Source: Clitopilus passeckerianus
Lineage: Eukaryota; Basidiomycota; Agaricomycetes; Agaricales; Entolomataceae
DNA length: 64,000 bases
Direction: 5' to 3'
Assembly (NCBI GenBank): GCA_944990035.1
Contig: CALYLX010000158.1
Coordinates: forward strand, 290,985-354,984
Shown here piece after piece: positions 5,513-60,616 of this stretch (position 1 is the stretch's first letter; each line of letters starts with the position of its first letter). Below the pieces are notes generated by a model. The model was not told the DNA's origin. It did not search any database and saw only the letters and a program-made list of their open reading frames with translations. The position numbers and the translations under genes were made by a program.

Positions 5513-8500
5513 ATGGTGAGTGTCTCTAACGCTTCCATGAACTATACCACCATGTGATATGATATCTATCCCAGGCAGATACGGAGCAACCTACCAGTCA
5601 TGTACGAGTTATTCGGTACATTCAAGTCGTTGCTTTAATCTAACACTCGTTTGCAGCGAATGGAAGTATGTCTCTAGTTTCACAATCTAAAAAAAAACAT
5701 AGACTGCATTACCTGACGACCCAACAGTTCGTGAGTGATGACCACCTCTGAACGGAAGATGTCTGCTCACCATTTCTATTGGTCATGTACGCCAGATTGT
5801 AAGTAACGCCTCGGACGCAATAAACATTGAAATAAAGAGGCTGATGTCGCGGCTCTTAGTGGGTGTGTGTAATCTTGGTTTAAAATCGCAATGGCGCTCA
5901 CCTGTAGCGGCAGAACGTGCGTACGGTCCTTAAGGAAACCGACTGACTTGACGAACCATTCGAACGCATTCAGAGAGTACGTACAGCGACCAACTTCAAT
6001 CCATATACGCATTCGCTAACTCCGACACCTTCAATAGGAAGTAAGTGAATCATTCAGTACCAAGCAACCCCTCGCCGATTCCGTCTTCAGAGAGTAAGTA
6101 ACCACCCAATTCAATCTATTCGCTCACTAAGTAACTTCATCTCAAGCCCGTAAGTAATTCTCCCAGTTTCGTCCACTCGCCTGATCTCGTCTCCAGAGCG
6201 TACGTTCAACATCTTATGATGCCTTTTCACTCGCTGGTCTCTGATCTATGTAATCCTCAGGGTGTAAGTGAACGTACTAATTTCACCTTTTTCGCTCGTT
6301 CATTCCACTTTCAGGACGTAATTGGCTCACCTGGGAAGGCATATTCACTCGCTCAGTTCTTTTTTCCCAGAGAGTAAGCCCGTCACTCAGCATTTTGCAA
6401 TCCCATCCTCTCCCCGATCTCACTGACATCTTCAGACTGTAAGTAAACCATCCTGCACCAGTAGTTCATCGCTGACCTCGCCTTCAGAAAGTAAATGCTC
6501 ATTTGATATCACCCGTTCACTTGCTAATCTTGGGTTTTCAGGACGTAAGTGCCCCCGTTAGGACCCCCTCATTCATTCCCTTGCTGATATAGCCTCAGAG
6601 AGTAAGTAGTCAAATCTCAAACCCCATCATCCCGGATCCAATTTCGCTTCATTTACCCACTGATTTTACTCTTAGAGAGTAAGCGACAATCCCGTAAAAC
6701 CCTTCCTAATCGATTCGCTGATCTTGATTTCAGGAAGTAAGCCATTCGGTCTCATTTAATTTCTGTTTTGCGCTGAGCTTGTCCTCAGAGAGTACGTGTC
6801 AAGCGGTTCTATCGACCCACTCTCACCCGCATTCACCTTGCTAATCTCATCCTCAGCTCGTAAGCAAAACATCCAACTCGAGTCCCGACCATCCCTTAGT
6901 TGATTCTGATCGCCTTTGCAGGACGTAAGTACCGAACCTCTCATCCGCATCTCTCCACTCGCTCGCTCGCTGATCTCGTCTCCAGAAAGTAAGCTTGCTG
7001 TCTAGTTTAATCTATTCGCTTGCTGATCCTGTCTTCTTCAGCTCGTAAGTGATCAATAACCTGCTAAGGCTCCTCCAACCCGCTTCTTTATCTCATATTC
7101 GTATTCAGCTCGTAAGTAGTTCATCCAGTTTCATTCATTCGCTCCTGATAATTTCGTCTCTAGAGAGTGAGTAAACACACTCCGTAAAACTCGTCGGCTG
7201 GCTGATGTTTGGTTTCAGGAAGTAAGTGACTCGTCGAGTTCGGTCTATATCCTCGCTGATTCCGGGTTCAGGAAGTAAGCAAATTACGCTCCTGTAATTT
7301 TGTTCATTCCTCGACCTGATTTCATCTGGTCTTTAGGGCGTAAGTTATTTATCCCAAGTTTCGTCCCGTTTGCTCATTGATTTTGTTGGTAGCTTGTAAG
7401 TGAAATATCTAGCGTCGTGTATAACCTCACGTTATCTCTCTTGACGCGTTTCCTTCTTCCTCCAGAGGGTACGTACCTCAATCATGCTTGTTTCAGACTG
7501 TGACCCGCTCCCAAGGCGCCCTACATCCAAAGTACGTCTCCTCACCCTCCAAAACCCAAACCAACCTCAGCTCAACCCCTCTAACCAAAAGTCATCCACA
7601 ACGTCATCGATGAACACATCCAAAACCGCCTCCCAATCTACCTTCTCAACCTCCAAAACATGCACCTCCTCCGCCGAAGTTCCATCAAATTACACCTCTC
7701 GAACTCCATCAATACCTTCATCGACCGCTTGTTACCTTTTGATCAAGATATGAAATGGATTAACCAAACTGAGGATGAGGTTCGAGCTGCGGCGGCGAGA
7801 TGGATCACGGAGGAGACGGGTTATGCGATTTTCTCGCATCGGTGGCTCGCGATGGGGGAATTGACGTTTCAAGATGTGTTGAAGATTGGAGAGATTCCTG
7901 TGGAGGGGTTTCGGGAATTGAGTGAGGAGATTATGAAGGAACGGTGCGAATGGAGTGGGAGAGAGATGGTGGAGTGGTTATGTGCGCGTGGTGGTGAACT
8001 TTCGAATGCTGGCTCCACCCCAAAGACCAGGGAGGAAGAGAATCCTGCGGGGCTCGGGCTACTGAGCGAGATAAAAACATTCTGTGACGGCCTCTCCTAC
8101 CCCCAACGACGCCACTGCCAGGACCTAGTCAAGCTAATCGAATTCTGTACTATCGCCTCCCAATGCGGGTGTAAACTCGCGTGGCTCGATACAGGGTGCA
8201 TCGACAAAAGTCGAAGTGCGGAGCTGGAGGAGTCGATTAGGTCGATGTTCAACTGGTATCGGGACGCTAAGATCTGCATCGTACACCTCGCGGAGACGAC
8301 CACCCCTAGGACTTTCGAGAGTGATCCGTGGTTCACTAGGGGATGGACGTTGCAGGAGCTTCTGGCTCCGAGGAGGATTCTTTTCTTTGGGAAGACTTGG
8401 GGTCGTATCACGCCCAACATGGATACGAACACGAACACGGAGGGAAACGATAAAGTCCCCGATGAAGTGCTGGGTATCCCGCTCTGGGAGACGATCTCTC

Positions 8501-9219
8501 AGGTTACGGGGATCGAGACGAGGGAGCTTCTGGATTTTGATGCTGGTATTGAGCATGCGAGGGATGCTCTTGGTTGGGTATCGAAGAGGTCAACCACTAG
8601 GGTTGAGGATATGGCGTATTGCTTGATTGGGTTGTTGCAGATACCGATGTCGGTTGCGTATGGGGAGGGGAGTATGGCATTTCATCGGTTGCAGGTGGAG
8701 ATTCTGCAGCGGAGTGGGGATATGGGGGTGTTCGCATGGACGGGCAGGGGTTCGTCCTTCAATAGTATGCTCGCGGCGAATGCGGGATGCTTTCGCCCTC
8801 TTCCCCTACAACCCCTTGTCACTGAACCACAGACGGAGAGCACTTTCTCCTGGGATCAAGCTCAGTCTACCGATCAGGCGTATGTGCTCAGGAACAAAGG
8901 GCTCCGGATTTCCTTGCCCGTGTATGGCGCGTACATTCGTAGCCAAGAAGTCATCAAAGAGGGACCCAACTCGGGTATGGTTCGAACTCATCTTGGGCTG
9001 GTGGACATGGATCAGGAAGTTATTGTGGTGTCGGGGGAGTTGGGAGGGTATCGACATCTTGGGATCGCTGTTTTGACTGGGGTGGCTGATGAAGAACGGA
9101 ATTTGGCTATTTTGCTTGGGATGAAGGGGGATTGTTGCGTAAGGATCCCGACGCGAGAGTATATCGTGCTGTCTCCTATCCAGAGAATGAAGCAGCCCGT
9201 TACTAGGTTTATCAATTAG
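5513..9219 (+). CDS. HET-domain protein with single-codon microexon array
   Basis: Predicted 592-residue HET-domain protein. Exon 1 ends in the start codon itself (ATG 5513-5515, then GTGAGT). Exon 2 is 5575-5601 (ADTEQPTSH) and exon 3 is 5657-5665 (RME). A run of about 30 tiny exons follows (5728-7468), then a 16-nt exon 7516-7531, then the main exon 7592-9219. Every junction up to the 16-nt exon is phase 0, and the frame closes exactly into IIHNVIDEHIQNRLPIYLL. The main exon cannot be extended upstream because no open frame reaches it without splicing. HET landmarks are YAIFSHRW (about residue 128), WLDTGCIDKS, DPWFTRGWTLQELLAP (about 295) and VEDMAYCLIGLLQIP (about 388). Stop TAG 9217-9219. 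The family is certain; the N-terminal splice model is inferred from sequence alone but is very regular. Exon 7 could be 9 nt (5908-5916) or 3 nt (5914-5916). Confidence 0.82.
5728..7468 (+). repeat. Array of single-codon microexons and short introns (HET gene at 5513)
   Basis: About 30 consecutive intron/microexon units. Each has a GTAAGT-like donor, usually a CTGAT or CTGAC branch site, a pyrimidine tract and CAG or TAG, then exactly 3 nt before the next donor. Exon starts and codons: 5728 TTC, 5796 ATT, 5860 TGG, 5908 (9 nt, ending AAC), 5974 AGA, 6038 GAA, 6091 AGA, 6147 CCC, 6197 AGC, 6261 GGT, 6315 GAC, 6371 AGA, 6436 ACT, 6488 AAA, 6542 GAC, 6599 AGA, 6676 AGA, 6734 GAA, 6789 AGA, 6857 CTC, 6922 GAC, 6986 AAA, 7042 CTC, 7109 CTC, 7164 AGA, 7219 GAA, 7272 GAA, 7337 GGC, 7393 CTT, 7466 AGG. 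Unit length varies from 50 to 77 nt, but the acceptor-to-donor gap stays at 3 nt. The encoded stretch is rich in Arg, Glu, Asp, Lys and Leu. Confidence 0.8.
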
Positions 9220-12485: not shown

Positions 12486-14788
12486 ATGGTGGGTATTATG
12501 AACAGCCCTCGTCCATTTGCTCTCTGATCTCGTCTTCAGCTCGTAAGTGAATTATACAGCCTCATCCATAAGTTCCCTGACCTCGACTTCAGGCAGTAAG
12601 TGAATTATCCACTCTCGTCCATTTGCTCGCTGATCTGGTCTTCAGCGGGTGAGTGAATCATTCAGTGTCGTCCATTAGTTCCCTGACCGGTACCTCGTCT
12701 TCAGGCGGTAAGTGAATCATCCAGTCTCGTCCATTTGCTCGCTGATCCGGTCTTCAGCGGGTAAGTGAACCGTCCAGCCTCATCCATTCGTTTCCTGACC
12801 TCGTCTTCAGGCAGTAAGTCAATCGTCCAGTCTCGTTCATTCGCTCGCTGATCTCGTCTTCAGGCAGTGAGTGAATCATCCAGTCTCATCCTTTCGCTCG
12901 CTGATCTTGTCTTCAGGAGGTAAGTACATCATCCAGCGTCGTCCATTTCCTCACTGATCTCGTCTTCAGAAAGTAAGTGAATCATCCAGGCTCGTCCACT
13001 CGCTCGTTCGCTGATCTTGTCTTCAGAAAGTAAGTCATATTACAGAATCCTTTAATCCATGTTGATGGCCTTTCTTTGTGCTGTAGCGGGTAGGCACTTT
13101 GATTATCCACTTGGCATGCTCATTCCCACACTTCTGCTTACCAGGCCTCCTACTCAGAAAGTACGTTTTTATCCTTTGGAACAGAAATGAACTACCATTG
13201 AACGTCCTTGACCGAAGTTATCCGCAATGTCATCGACGAGTACATTCAAAACCAACTTCCGATATATCTCCTTCAGCTGGATGGTATGAAACTGGTCCGG
13301 AGGGGCGCTGTCAAAGGCTACGTTCAAGAAGCCATTGCCGAGCTTTTACCTTCTAATAGCATCTCATGGGGGCGTCTAGCCGAGAAAGATATCAGGGCTA
13401 GTGCGGTCGAATGGATCACGAAGGAGACGGGATATGCAATTTTTTCTCATCGGTGGCTTGACACGGGCGAATTGACCTTTCAGGACATGTTGAAGCTCGG
13501 AGAGATTTCCGTTGAAGGATTGCAGCAGCTTGCGGAAGATTGGACCACAGAACGAACCGGTCGGGAGATCCTGGACTTCTTAGTTGATTCCACGTTTACA
13601 GCCAAGAAGGAGGAAGAGAAATCGGGGTTGCTGAGGGCGCTGACGACGTTCTGTGATGGGTTATCCTACAACCAACAAGCGCGTTGCCAGGGCCTTATCA
13701 AGCTCCTCAAATTCTGCAACATGGCATCGCAGTATGGCTGCAAATTTGCCTGGTTCGATACTGGCTGCATCGATAAGAGTAGCAGTGCCGAGCTCGAAGA
13801 GTCCATCCGATCAATGTTTAAGTGGTACTGTGAAGCTAAGATTTGCATAGTTCACCTCGCCGAGACCACCACGTGTTTTGATTCCGCTCGAACCGTCGTT
13901 TGGGAGAGCTTCGAACGAGATCCATGGTTCACGAGGGGTTGGACGCTGCAGGAGCTCTTGGCTCCTAAAAGAATCATCTTCTTTGGGAATGGCTGGGGTC
14001 GTCTCACCAGCAACACGGAGGGGAACGACAAGGTCTCTGATGACGTCTTGGGTATCCCTCTCTGGGAGACAATCTCCCTCGTTACAGGGATCGACACCGA
14101 TCAGCTCCTCAACTTTACTGCTGGCATCGATCACGCCAGAGACGCCCTCACATGGGTATCGAAAAGGCAAACCACCAGAATCGAGGACATGGCATATTGC
14201 CTTATCGGTTTGTTACAGATCCCCATGTCTATCGCATACGGCGAAGGGACTATGGCATTCCATCGGCTCCAGGCGGAGATCTTGCAGCGTAGTGGAGACA
14301 CGGGCTTATTCGCATGGACAGGACACCCTTCCCCCTTCAATAGTATGCTTGCAGCCAATCCAGGTTGCTTTTCCCCTCTTCCGCTCCAGCCAGTAACGAC
14401 CGAGCCAGAGAGAGACCCAGAATTCACCTGGGACAAAGCACCCTCTCGCGATCGGGCTGCTACTATGCTTACGAATGAGGGGTTGCAGATTCCCTTGGCG
14501 GTTTACAGCGCGACGATTATGAGTCAGAGCGAGGTCGACTTCGAATTAGGGACGGTGGAATCTCGGTTGGGGCTGTTGGACCAGGAAATTATCGTTGTGA
14601 CCAAGAATTTGGATGGTTATCATCATCTAGGGGTAGCCGTTCTCCCCAGGTTGGCTGACGACTCACGTACTTTGGCTATCTTGCTCGGTATCCGCGGAAA
14701 TCGGTGCACAAGGGTCCCGACTCAAGAGCACATCGTGCTATCTCCTATTCCGACCAAGAAGCAGCCCGTTACTTGGTTCATCGAGTGA
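12486..14788 (+). CDS. HET-domain protein with 11 single-codon microexons
   Basis: Predicted 540-residue HET-domain protein. ATG 12486-12488 abuts a GTGGGT donor. Eleven 3-nt exons follow (12540-13089), then a 16-nt exon 13145-13160 (ASYSE plus one base) and the main exon 13218-14788. The frame closes into IIRNVIDEYIQNQLPIYLL, homologous to the same place in the gene at 5513. A stop codon just upstream of 13202 in the main-exon frame shows that the preceding intron must be removed. HET landmarks are YAIFSHRWLDTGELTFQDM (about residue 89), WFDTGCIDKSSSAELEESI, DPWFTRGWTLQELLAPKR (about 252) and RIEDMAYCLIGLLQIPMSI. Stop TGA 14786-14788. Compared with the neighbour, the N-terminal arm is shorter because the array holds fewer units. 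Family certain; microexons inferred from sequence. Confidence 0.84.
12540..13089 (+). repeat. 53-bp periodic array of introns and single-codon exons (HET gene at 12486)
   Basis: Eleven 3-nt exons: 12540 CTC, 12593 GCA, 12646 CGG, 12705 GCG, 12758 CGG, 12811 GCA, 12864 GCA, 12917 GAG, 12970 AAA, 13027 AAA, 13087 CGG. Most units are 53 bp (50-nt intron plus 3-nt exon). The introns are near copies of one sequence, beginning GTAAGTGAATCATCCAG, with TCGTCCATTTGCTCG in the middle and CTGATCTCGTCTTCAG at the end. The three bases between CAG and GTAAGT are the most variable part of the unit. Since 50 is not a multiple of 3, retention of any intron shifts the frame. Confidence 0.85.
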
Positions 14789-15415: not shown

Positions 15416-18400
15416 TCATAAATTGGCCGAAAAGAGAAGAGAAAGATCAAAGATGACCGCGACGAAAGGACGAGCATGTAAAGTAGAAAGTGGACGAATA
15501 ACGCAGTAAAGAACAAAAGTCCGGGGGTAAAAACGATGAATGTAAGCCATGACAGACTGGCGCACGACGACAAATATAAGCGTCATGGGTATACTGTAAT
15601 GGGGTCGGCGCTGGCGTGTTAAACACAGTGTTGCAGACAGCCGACCAAAGCTGAACGAAAAAGGGCCCGGGAGAGGGCCGTAGATGAAAGCAGCACGGTG
15701 GAGGAGGATGAAGGCTTTTCGTGGTGATGATGGGCCAATGCAAGGACCAGCTTCTGAAGGATATGTTCCTTCCACCTCCGATTCCTTCACCAGGCCTTCA
15801 TCACCTGCTTCGCCCTCGCTGACTTCTATAGGTGTCCGTACCTGGCCGGGCGCACACTGTCCTCGTCCCGTCGGGTGAAAACAGTAAGCTTGGGACTGGG
15901 CCTGATCACGCTTGCGGAGAGAGCGGAAGAACGACTCTGAGTCTCAAGGCTGAAGCTTGAAGGGGTGGGATGGGATGGGATGGGATGGGATGGGGGAGCG
16001 AGGTGGCTGGCAATCGCAAGAATCATCTTCATCGTCATCCGCCAACTCGTGTACTGCAACAGCCTATTTCTTTGACTGCTTCCCGGATACACTTCCTTCC
16101 TCTTGCTCTGCTGCGTCTGCCCCTGCCTCGTCACTCCCACCCCCATCCGCTCCTCTGGTGACGTGGTGGTTCAGCTCCTTTGTCTGCAGCGAAAGTGCGC
16201 AGGCTCATCCCCTTCGCATCGGGAGGCCTCTGCTGACCTCCAAATCCAATACCTCCAGCAGCCGTCCTGTTCTGGATTATGAGGGTTGCTGCCGACTTTG
16301 CTGGGGTGTAAGGACGACATGTCCTCGGAGCGCCAAGAGTCTCCCTCTGCGGGTACTCGAAGGCCCTATAGCTAGGATGCCGCGTTGACGACGGTAGGCG
16401 AGGAGTATACACCACTGAGGGAAGATTTTGGACGAGCGCATGGCAAGGTCCAAGAAGCTTGAATCGCTGCTGCCAGTGTTCTTGTGGTCGTCTTGGATAG
16501 CTGTGCCAGCGTAACCCCGAGTTTTCAGAGGAAGAGGCAAGATGCTTCGTATCGCTGTGTTAGGGTTTGCGAGAGTTTGAAGGCAGACCTAGAGGGCGAG
16601 AATGCTTCCTCCAGCATGAACAGCTTCGGGAGTGGCAAAGGTATCTTCTGCTGGTGGTAAGGATGCCAGTCAACTGGCTTCGTTGTTGGGCGGCGTTGTA
16701 GAGGTTTGGTGGTAAGGTTCGGAAGGGTGATGGATAGGGTCGGGGGAGGCTGGAAAGGGGGTCGTTTTCTTCATCAAAGGTGCAACAGCCTTCCCGTTCG
16801 AATTCGCCCTAATATCGTCTCGAGAGTCTATTCCATTCTCCCGTGCGTCTGCCTGATTCACAATCATCGGTTCTTCTGGTAATGTTGTCGTTATATTTGC
16901 CTTAGTCTTTGGAGGTACGGAAGGACATGTAGTTCCTGGTCCTCCTCGTCGTAGTCGTAGGCCCGACAGCGAGAGTGTGGGTCGATGGTGGAAGGTGAGG
17001 AAGGTATATCCTTGGCGGTGAGAGAAGGTTTGGGTAACTGCGTAGGAAGGCCCAAAGCGCTTGTCGTGCTTGAGCTTGAGGGTCTACAGACGTCGTCTGG
17101 GGTAGTCCAACAGCGGTAGTTTTGGTCTTGGGGTTAGGAGACGAGGTGCGTTGTGTTCCTCGGGTTGGCGTAGAAGGTAGAGGTGGACGTCGAGGATCCA
17201 TAATCCTTCCTAAATACGACCTGTGCCGGTTTCGTTAATACACGCAGCAAAGAACACCAAAACACACGATACATACCTCTAATGTCGAAATGTGGTTATT
17301 CTCACTCTGGAAGAGCCGCTCGTTTGACTAGAAACGATGTCTTCATAGGCGTCTGCAAGACGATTGTAAGAATCTTGATTTATTCGCAGCGACCAGACAG
17401 AACTCACCGACGGTGGTACGAAACCGGTCTGATATGACAGACGAGTACCAGCTAGCAGATGGACCAGTCGACCAACTGCCTTACAGAGCGCTGTTGCCGG
17501 AAGTCGGTGTTGGGGTTTTACATGAGGTCGGTGACAGATGTGAGCGGGGGAGGTCGAACTTGGGGAACCATTTTCCTCATCCAAGGTGCAATTTGAACAG
17601 CCTTCCCATTCGATTGCTCCCTAGATCTCATCTCCACCGCTTCCTGTCGCGACAATCCATTATACAACCTCGTCCCCTGAAGCCACCGGTCCCTCTGGTA
17701 ATGTTGCCCTTTGAATTCGTCTCGGTCTCTGGAGGTACGGGAGGCCATGGATTGTTGGTCCTTCTAGCCGTAGACTTACAACGGAGGCGAGAGGTCGATG
17801 GGGGTAAGGGAGGAGGATAGATCATTTGGGGTCACAGTGTTGGGAGGTTTAGAGATTTGCGAAGGAAGGTCCAAGAAGCGAGCCTGTACAGCTGTATCAC
17901 TCTAGGGCTGCCGCCGTTTGTGATGGATGTGATATGACGGGGTAGTCTGTGTTTTGGAGTAGGCGGGGTTGAGTTTGGGGCACCATGTAGACAGCGAGAG
18001 CGCTTCCCACAATATGAGCGACACGTTCCCCTGGTGGCGGATGTAGCAGTCAACCAGCCTCTGTACGGCGCTCGGGGGCCGTGACTAGAGCTTGATGTTG
18101 GTGCTGTGGATGAAGACAGTGATGGATGATGGATGAGGGCGGGGGGAGGTCGAAGTTGGAGGATTGTCTTCTCCATCTAAAGGTACGACAGCGTTCCTGT
18201 TCGATTTCTTCCTAGATGTGGACCCTGTTTCGAGCTTGCCTCTACCTCTCTGACACATTGATGACAGGAAAGGAGGATTCGCCGTGGACGGTGTAGCAGG
18301 TTTTGGACGACCGTGTATGAAACTCTGCAGAGGTATGTCGTCGCGGTCTGGGGAGGAAGAGAGGGGTGGCTTTGGGTTCCTTGGGTTGAAGTAGAAGGTA

Positions 18401-59997: not shown

Positions 59998-60338
59998 GGT
60001 GAATTGGGTATTCATCGTTTGTATCATAAATCGGAAAGACTGTATCAACAGTATAATTGTATCATAATATATCACGAGCTTGCATAAATCTGCAACCACA
60101 CGTCCATGTCCTTTGGCATCGCGGACTTACTAATTCTGTGCAAGCACAAGCTGTTATGATTTTGCTTACATGTTTCTCCTTACATACCCCGGCCCGCTTA
60201 CCTATGCACGATTACTCACATATGCTGCGCATCACTGCGCATTTTTCATCTTTTTCCATGCTTACTCCGCATCTCTCACGATCGTGAGAGACTTATACCT
60301 TATCTGACTCTTTCTGACTCATGTACTTACTCATCATG
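59998..60338. other. Intergenic, possibly start of LTR
   Basis: AT-rich sequence with repeated CATGCTGCGCATGACTCA-like stretches near its right end. The left LTR may begin in here, but its partner is cut by the window edge so the boundary cannot be set. Confidence 0.4.
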
Positions 60339-60616
60339 CTGCGCATGACTCATTACTTACTCAGCATGCTGCGCATGTGCTATATTTAGAACTACTAGAT
60401 AGGTATATAAACCTGTACCATTTGGTCAAGGCTCCTCAGCTTGACCTAGGCAATCTACCTAACTGCTTAGTTCTCTATTTCGCCTTTAAGTCCCTTGCTT
60501 CGTCAATCTCACCAGGTCGTCAGTACAGCCGCAGCTGCTGACAAATCTCTGTCTTTGTTTATCAAAGACATCGAGCGTAAACAGTATTACCTAAGTTGTT
60601 AGGCTCTGCCTTAACA
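60339..60616 (+). repeat. LTR, left copy
   Basis: These 278 bases match, as reverse complement, 63722-64000 almost perfectly. TATATAA at 60404-60410 is in plus orientation and the copy ends in TTAACA, as expected for U3-R-U5 of a plus-strand element. The terminal TGTTAGGCTCTGCCTTAACA is itself nearly palindromic. The true left boundary is probably further left. Confidence 0.75.

Follow-up and report, generated by a model that had tools for sequence, protein, structure and literature searches.

Arrays of putative single-codon exons upstream of the HET domain in a gene family of a mushroom-like fungus

Described systems with codon-sized exons

The closest described counterparts of the genes analysed here are the nank (NACHT-ANK) genes of the truffle Tuber melanosporum, which are reported to contain tens or dozens of 3-bp microexons (Iotti et al. 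2012, doi 10.1016/j.funbio.2011.11.009, as cited in PMC4986451, PMC10197012, PMC3689799 and PMC9815663). Two of these citing accounts describe the microexons as alternatively spliced and as diversifying the recognition domain (PMC9815663, PMC10197012). The present genes resemble them, as far as the sequence tells, in being fungal genes of an immune type with tens of codon-sized exons. However, the truffle genes are presented in these accounts as NACHT-ankyrin receptors with a C-terminal recognition domain, whereas here the genes encode HET proteins and the segment is N-terminal. The arrays also differ in reaching 95 codons, in having two intron unit lengths besides an array with dissimilar introns, in the evidence of selection on codons between gene copies, and in that the nearest named HET relatives are mushrooms. 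A preliminary description of this DNA had known of no gene with such a long run of one-codon exons. In that general form the statement does not hold, given the published truffle arrays as the citing accounts present them, but for mushrooms and for HET genes no report of arrays of one-codon exons was found in the open-licence literature, among the matches listed and at the level of titles and the first parts of abstracts. The HET arrays are apparently a new case, independent of that of the truffle, in another gene family and with evidence of selection.

Other systems are more distant. The micro-exon genes of Schistosoma are described as containing successive short exons whose lengths are mostly divisible by three, with sizes of 3-81 or 6-81 bp, mostly 15 bp, and introns of up to about 5 kb, and as encoding secreted parasite proteins (PMC10526429); here the exons are of 3 nt and 826 of 838 introns are no longer than 95 nt. 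In Podospora anserina the NWD genes HET-E, HET-D and HET-R combine a HET domain with hypervariable repeats under concerted evolution (PMC4986451), but the repeats described there are WD repeats located after the NACHT domain, while the repeated unit here is an intron plus one codon, located before the HET domain. Stwintrons (PMC9024468) are similar in being multiplied, mutually similar introns, but they are nested, and no row of codon exons appears in the available part of that account. The one-nucleotide exon of Fusarium CYP621A (PMC12940212) is comparable in its extreme shortness, but is presented in that source as a single tiny exon. The HET domain itself is described as related to TIR and as mediating cell death in non-self recognition (PMC4986451, PMC9815663), and basidiomycete HET domains are reported to occur outside NLR architectures (PMC9815663).

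Anatomy of the arrays and their occurrence in the genome

The window, a stretch of 64,000 nucleotides, is located on the contig labelled C155 of a 64.8-Mb assembly. The first of its two complete array genes (Table 1) comprises an isolated start codon, two small exons, 30 consecutive single-codon exons, a 16-nt exon and the HET exon. Direct reading and a script both recovered the run of 3-nt exons, each preceded by AG and followed by GT, that had been noted in the preliminary description, and the intron lengths given there were reproduced by measurement. The frame closes through the 16-nt exon, as had been proposed: the complete model is open throughout and encodes 590 amino acids, M-ADTEQPTSH-RME-FIWNRERPSGDRTKDRRERLDKLLREEGLR-APYIQ followed by the HET protein. 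The product matches PF06985 with 33.1 bits, above the cut-off of 22.5, and HET was the sole domain found in the 590-aa model, with no NACHT and no ANK. The acceptor preceding the CCC unit (6147) is AAG. Of the introns of this array, 79% contain the branch-site motif YTRAY, against 35% in shuffled sequence.

Table 1. Predicted features of the two complete array genes in the window
Feature	Position	Strand	Remarks
Gene 1, exon 1	5513..5515	+	start codon ATG, donor GTGAGT; from sequence
Gene 1, exon 2	5575..5601	+	27 nt, ADTEQPTSH; same length in C155_1, C106_1, C106_3, C157a and C157c
Gene 1, exon 3	5657..5665	+	9 nt, RME; 9-nt exon also in C155_1, C106_1, C106_3, C97a and C36b
Gene 1, array	5728..7468	+	30 single-codon exons, 29 introns of 47-74 nt; encodes FIWNRERPSGDRTKDRRERLDKLLREEGLR; from sequence and script
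Unit starts (AG/NNN/GT) 1-10	5728, 5796, 5860, 5914, 5974, 6038, 6091, 6147, 6197, 6261		
Unit starts (AG/NNN/GT) 11-20	6315, 6371, 6436, 6488, 6542, 6599, 6676, 6734, 6789, 6857		
Unit starts (AG/NNN/GT) 21-30	6922, 6986, 7042, 7109, 7164, 7219, 7272, 7337, 7393, 7466		
Gene 1, 16-nt exon	7516..7531	+	APYIQ + 1 nt, sets frame for HET exon; found by script
Gene 1, HET exon	7592..9219	+	PF06985 HET domain; stop TAG at 9217-9219
Gene 2, start codon	12486..12488	+	from sequence
Gene 2, array	12540..13089	+	11 single-codon exons (LARARAAEKKR), period about 53 nt; from sequence and script
Gene 2, 16-nt exon	13145..13160	+	ASYSE + 1 nt; script
Gene 2, HET exon	13218..14788	+	homology and script

The window also contains, at positions 1-923, the 3' part of another HET gene (C155_3), the array of which comprises 19 codons and lies just beyond the window edge, at about C155:289245-290213. 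Two short tandem repeats, with periods of 30 and 5, were observed at 60315-60377 and 15962-15994, respectively.

The preliminary description had placed the run in one HET gene; instead, the arrays belong to a family. Used as a protein query, the HET exon of the window gene gave at least 27 matches in at least 24 loci; PF06985 itself had 18 matches above the cut-off in the genome. One-codon exon arrays were found in 21 of the 24 HET loci examined: five on C155, five on C106, nine on C34, C36, C97 and C157, and the pair C98/C101. In the remaining HET relatives (C13, C113 and C26) the same search of the sense strands found no array; these are also the loci in which HET homology starts late, from query residues 67-71 rather than from residues 1-3 as in the other 21. 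The best named relative of the HET exon is from Flammula alnicola (49%), with Psilocybe cyanescens lower in the list. The arrays contain 11-95 one-codon exons in 19 loci, and 54 and 53 in C98 and C101, respectively, as read from the sequence. The longest one, C155_1, includes the KFVEKPAEELMK region, and its ATG followed by 27-nt and 9-nt exons was likewise recovered by the free-length search outlined below. The repeat unit measures about 53 nt on C155 and C106 and about 69 nt on C34, C36, C97 and C157. Colinearity between C155 and C106 extends for about 80 kb, with roughly 76-93% identity in colinear blocks and 91-92% near the two genes of the window, and the two contigs most likely represent two haplotypes; the other locus pairs are presumed to be haplotype pairs as well.

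Exon length was examined by a search in which the matrices for scoring splice sites were trained with the searched locus left out and the exon length was left free, from 0 to 60 nt over 19 loci and from 0 to 40 nt for the comparison with shuffles. Exons of 3 nt were by far the commonest outcome in the 19 loci (817), followed by 24 exons of 7 nt; those 7-nt exons listed inside arrays consist of a 3-nt exon plus a GC or weaker GT donor (GTCA, GTCG, GTCC or GTTA). Chance, which had been dismissed in the preliminary description, does not produce such a run: 29 exons of 3 nt were recovered from the window array, compared with none or a single one from each of its 10 mononucleotide shuffles, and the 10 shuffles each of C101, C98 and C13 likewise gave 0 or 1. 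Two units of the window array came out longer: the TGG unit (5860) was extended to the 5 nt TGGGT, and one of two runs gave the AAC unit (5914) a length of 9 nt.

Few units appear to be missing, since the gap to the neighbouring unit is at most 95 nt in 826 of 838 cases. By eye, eight of the 12 longer gaps contain another small exon below the thresholds, two (in C106_5 and C97b) resemble units with the acceptor lost, and the remaining two are in C34b. The C34b, C106_5 and C97b arrays precede HET frames interrupted by stops or breaks, which would fit a release of the array from constraint once the HET frame decays. The disrupted frames are located at C106:161210-162712, C97:348132-349699 and C34:99444-100920, with irregular gaps in the preceding arrays.

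Among the unit donors, 841 are GT and 16 are GC, these being the only two types that the search admitted; in the uncorrected set GCAAGT accounts for 13 of 19 GC donors. Column conservation in six homogenised arrays is high at donor positions +3 to +6 (0.73-1.00) and averages 0.80-0.95 over intron interiors, while the codon columns, at 0.35-0.78, are among the most variable of the unit; the invariance of the AG and of the donor G in this comparison is set by the choice of units and is no evidence alone. In all 16 loci, of 19, in which the HET start was located, a 16-nt exon leads in frame to the HET exon; this figure comes from a search aimed at an exon of that length, without a random control. 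All nine loci of the 69-nt class (C34a, C34b, C36a, C36b, C97a, C97b, C157a, C157b and C157c) have a GC donor at the 16-nt exon (GCATGT, GCACGT or GCAAGT) with an AAG acceptor, and the seven located in the 53-nt class have GT donors.

The C98/C101 pair has a different organisation. Besides the 54 and 53 exons of 3 nt, most other exons are of 6, 9, 12, 15 or 18 nt, and the introns compared within one array resemble each other no more than shuffled sequences do (0.436 versus 0.429 and 0.423 versus 0.426). YTRAY occurs in 44% of 18 C98 introns and in 41% in shuffles. Here the spacing is kept although the introns are mutually unlike, which indicates that the C98/C101 array is not a satellite, and the earlier statement that the 3-nt spacing persists despite intron divergence is borne out in this pair.

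Coding constraint and comparison of gene copies

The 857 array codons of 19 loci include no stop codon, against 53.2 expected from the base composition of each array with the three codon positions taken as independent (P = 7e-25); for TAA and TGA alone the numbers are 0 and 41.6. The unit search scored the flanks and not the codons. Across the arrays 60 of the 61 sense codons are in use. Codons resembling an acceptor are scarce, CAG occurring once against 31 CAA and AAG twice against 71 AAA, while GAG is not (41 against 137), with P = 1e-6; in two HET exons all three of these codons are frequent. Part of this scarcity is unspecific, since array codons generally prefer A in the third position. 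The main set is corrected by dropping the last node of six loci, which corresponds to the end of the 16-nt exon; intron lengths, shuffles, column conservation, periodicity, unit pairs and the copy comparisons, except for the codons of C97a/C157b and the exons of C98/C101, are based on uncorrected counts. For C97b the counts cover the array without its 5' part of 11 units, located beyond a long interruption.

In three pairs of gene copies the meaning of the codons is fixed. The window gene and its C106 counterpart share 30 codons, of which 28 are identical, two differ synonymously and none non-synonymously, while their introns differ at 110 of 1608 positions (6.8%) plus 53 gap nt. C97a and C157b have 46 identical, three synonymous and no non-synonymous codons of 49, with 305 mismatches in 3227 intron positions (9.5%). 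Pooled, the two pairs show five differences in 79 codons, all synonymous (P = 0.0002-0.001). In C98/C101 both of the two differences in 348 nt of length-matched exons, exons of unequal length being left out, are synonymous, against 61 in 1053 nt (5.8%) in the 18 introns compared.

In other pairs the codons differ more than the introns. According to gapped peptide alignments of the uncorrected units, exons and introns differ by 25% and 9% of nucleotides in C34a/C36a, by 33% and 10% in C155_5/C106_4, and by 49% and 23% in C155_3/C106_2; in the corrected set C155_5/C106_4 has five identical, two synonymous and four non-synonymous codons of 11. C97b, the HET frame of which is broken, has six non-synonymous and three synonymous differences from C157a in 51 codons, with 7.8% difference in exons and 9.2% in introns, as would be expected under weak constraint. 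Within arrays, 83 pairs of units with introns only 1.2% different carry codons that differ at 45% of their sites; this set excludes introns of unequal length, C98 and members of close pairs. Either selection drives the codons of the variable arrays apart, or introns have been homogenised while codons were kept. Some genes thus keep the predicted segment, while in others it varies.

The arrays are very probably real coding regions in which nearly each codon forms its own exon, and which we infer to be spliced and fused to the HET domain. The absence of stops, the synonymous-only copy differences and the closure of the frame through the 16-nt exon suggest selected in-frame codons rather than a satellite, in agreement with the preliminary description. 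It is improbable that the array is an intronic tandem repeat which is spliced out in one piece as a long intron, or passed over entirely, to give a HET protein without the segment. The units are partly homogenised in tandem, as seen from the period of 53 in the second array, and skipping of any number of 3-nt exons preserves the frame, so that the protein would still be made. A spliced-out repeat, however, needs no codon meaning, and therefore the lack of stops, the purely synonymous differences in two pairs and the scarcity of CAG and AAG speak against such removal, as does the spacing maintained between the mutually dissimilar introns of C98/C101.

Still more remote is a transcription start downstream of the array, which would then be non-coding upstream DNA. 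Such a start would accord with the relatives compared, 11 of 12 of which begin inside the HET exon or at most about 15 residues before it (for example Flammula alnicola, MIMCCLCVLMINNVINEH), the twelfth, a partial Psilocybe model, having about 45 further residues. It is at odds with the HET homology, which in 21 of 24 loci extends back to query residues 1-3, with the preservation of the upstream 16-nt exon in length and frame, and with the constraint on the array codons. A satellite, a downstream start and one long intron were accordingly each rejected as the main interpretation.

Possible origin, splicing and role of the array segment

The arrays may have originated by insertion of introns between the codons of an older continuous exon, in an introner-like manner, instead of by tandem duplication of a codon together with its intron; such an origin is quite conceivable, if somewhat short of probable. 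Intron similarity is nearly independent of separation in seven arrays (C155_1, C155_2, C34a, C36a, C36b, C157a and C157c, members of close pairs being left out), a star-like pattern unlike that of stepwise duplication, although array-wide gene conversion could equally yield it. Insertion would also be consistent with the nearly identical introns that carry different codons in the 83 unit pairs, and with the undivided pieces of 6, 9, 12, 15 and 18 nt among the one-codon exons of C98/C101. On the other hand, adjacent codons are identical slightly more often than in shuffles (86 of 732 at lag 1 against 65, z 3.0), and lags 5 and 6 are raised as well (z 3.0 and 2.7), as local duplication would do. 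Moreover, three exact 12-base words of the unit appear to cluster only at HET loci, which would be unlike a dispersed introner: matches outside HET arrays numbered 10 of 70, 6 of 25 and 2 of 10, compared with 13, 9 and 7 for the reversed controls, for these three words only.

If the arrays are spliced as modelled, the ordinary spliceosome would remove the short introns, recognising introns rather than exons. Splice-site recognition is subject to general size limits, and a 3-nt exon leaves too little room for both of its splice sites to be bound simultaneously; removal would therefore most likely be stepwise, each codon being joined to a lengthening upstream exon. The product would be an N-terminal segment of up to about 95 codons, often highly charged, attached to the TIR-like HET cell-death domain.

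The outcome of splicing may be many proteins rather than one. Combinatorial inclusion of the 3-nt exons would give many N-terminal variants from one gene, differing from the main interpretation in the number of proteins, and is possible but somewhat doubtful. The near-identical introns of several arrays, with interiors of up to 0.84 mean pairwise identity, provide no obvious cue for order, any skip leaves the frame intact, and alternative splicing of the truffle NACHT-ANK microexons, as summarised in PMC9815663 and PMC10197012, offers a precedent; however, the fixed codon meaning in three pairs suggests that a definite sequence matters there.

Residues 1-80 of the C97a product and residues 1-115 of a C101-based model had no match at E <= 10 among annotated proteins (15 and 53 word-sharing candidates), and a Pfam scan of four predicted N-terminal segments yielded no family above its cut-off. 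The order of the codons gave no evidence of helical folding: hydrophobic autocorrelation and power, compared with order shuffles, had no peak at 100 degrees in the arrays of at least 25 codons, members of close pairs being left out. In viral contigs searched for relatives, two stretches fitted a pattern and neither encoded a relative.

The segment may act as the recognition or partner-binding part, for sensing or docking, of a HET protein of self/non-self recognition, defence or allorecognition. As each exon is a single codon, gain, loss, replacement or skipping of a unit is frame-safe, and the segment could vary one residue at a time. We tentatively suggest that the specificity of these HET proteins could be written in one-codon cassettes open to exchange, addition or skipping one at a time, with codons outpacing the introns in some genes and frozen in others. 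At the RNA level, splicing of single residues might contribute a further repertoire.

Should splicing follow the model, the protein segments would be extremely fragmented, with up to 95 consecutive codons as separate exons, which raises the question of how the spliceosome handles dozens of consecutive 3-nt exons in order. Ordinary aligners and gene finders are expected to miss such arrays, and since most of the relatives compared start at or near the HET exon, similar segments may be overlooked in other fungi. The occurrence of such arrays in a truffle and in a mushroom-like fungus suggests that codon-sized exons arose in separate immune-type families, and separate arrays would point to a common advantage, namely frame-safe variation one residue at a time.
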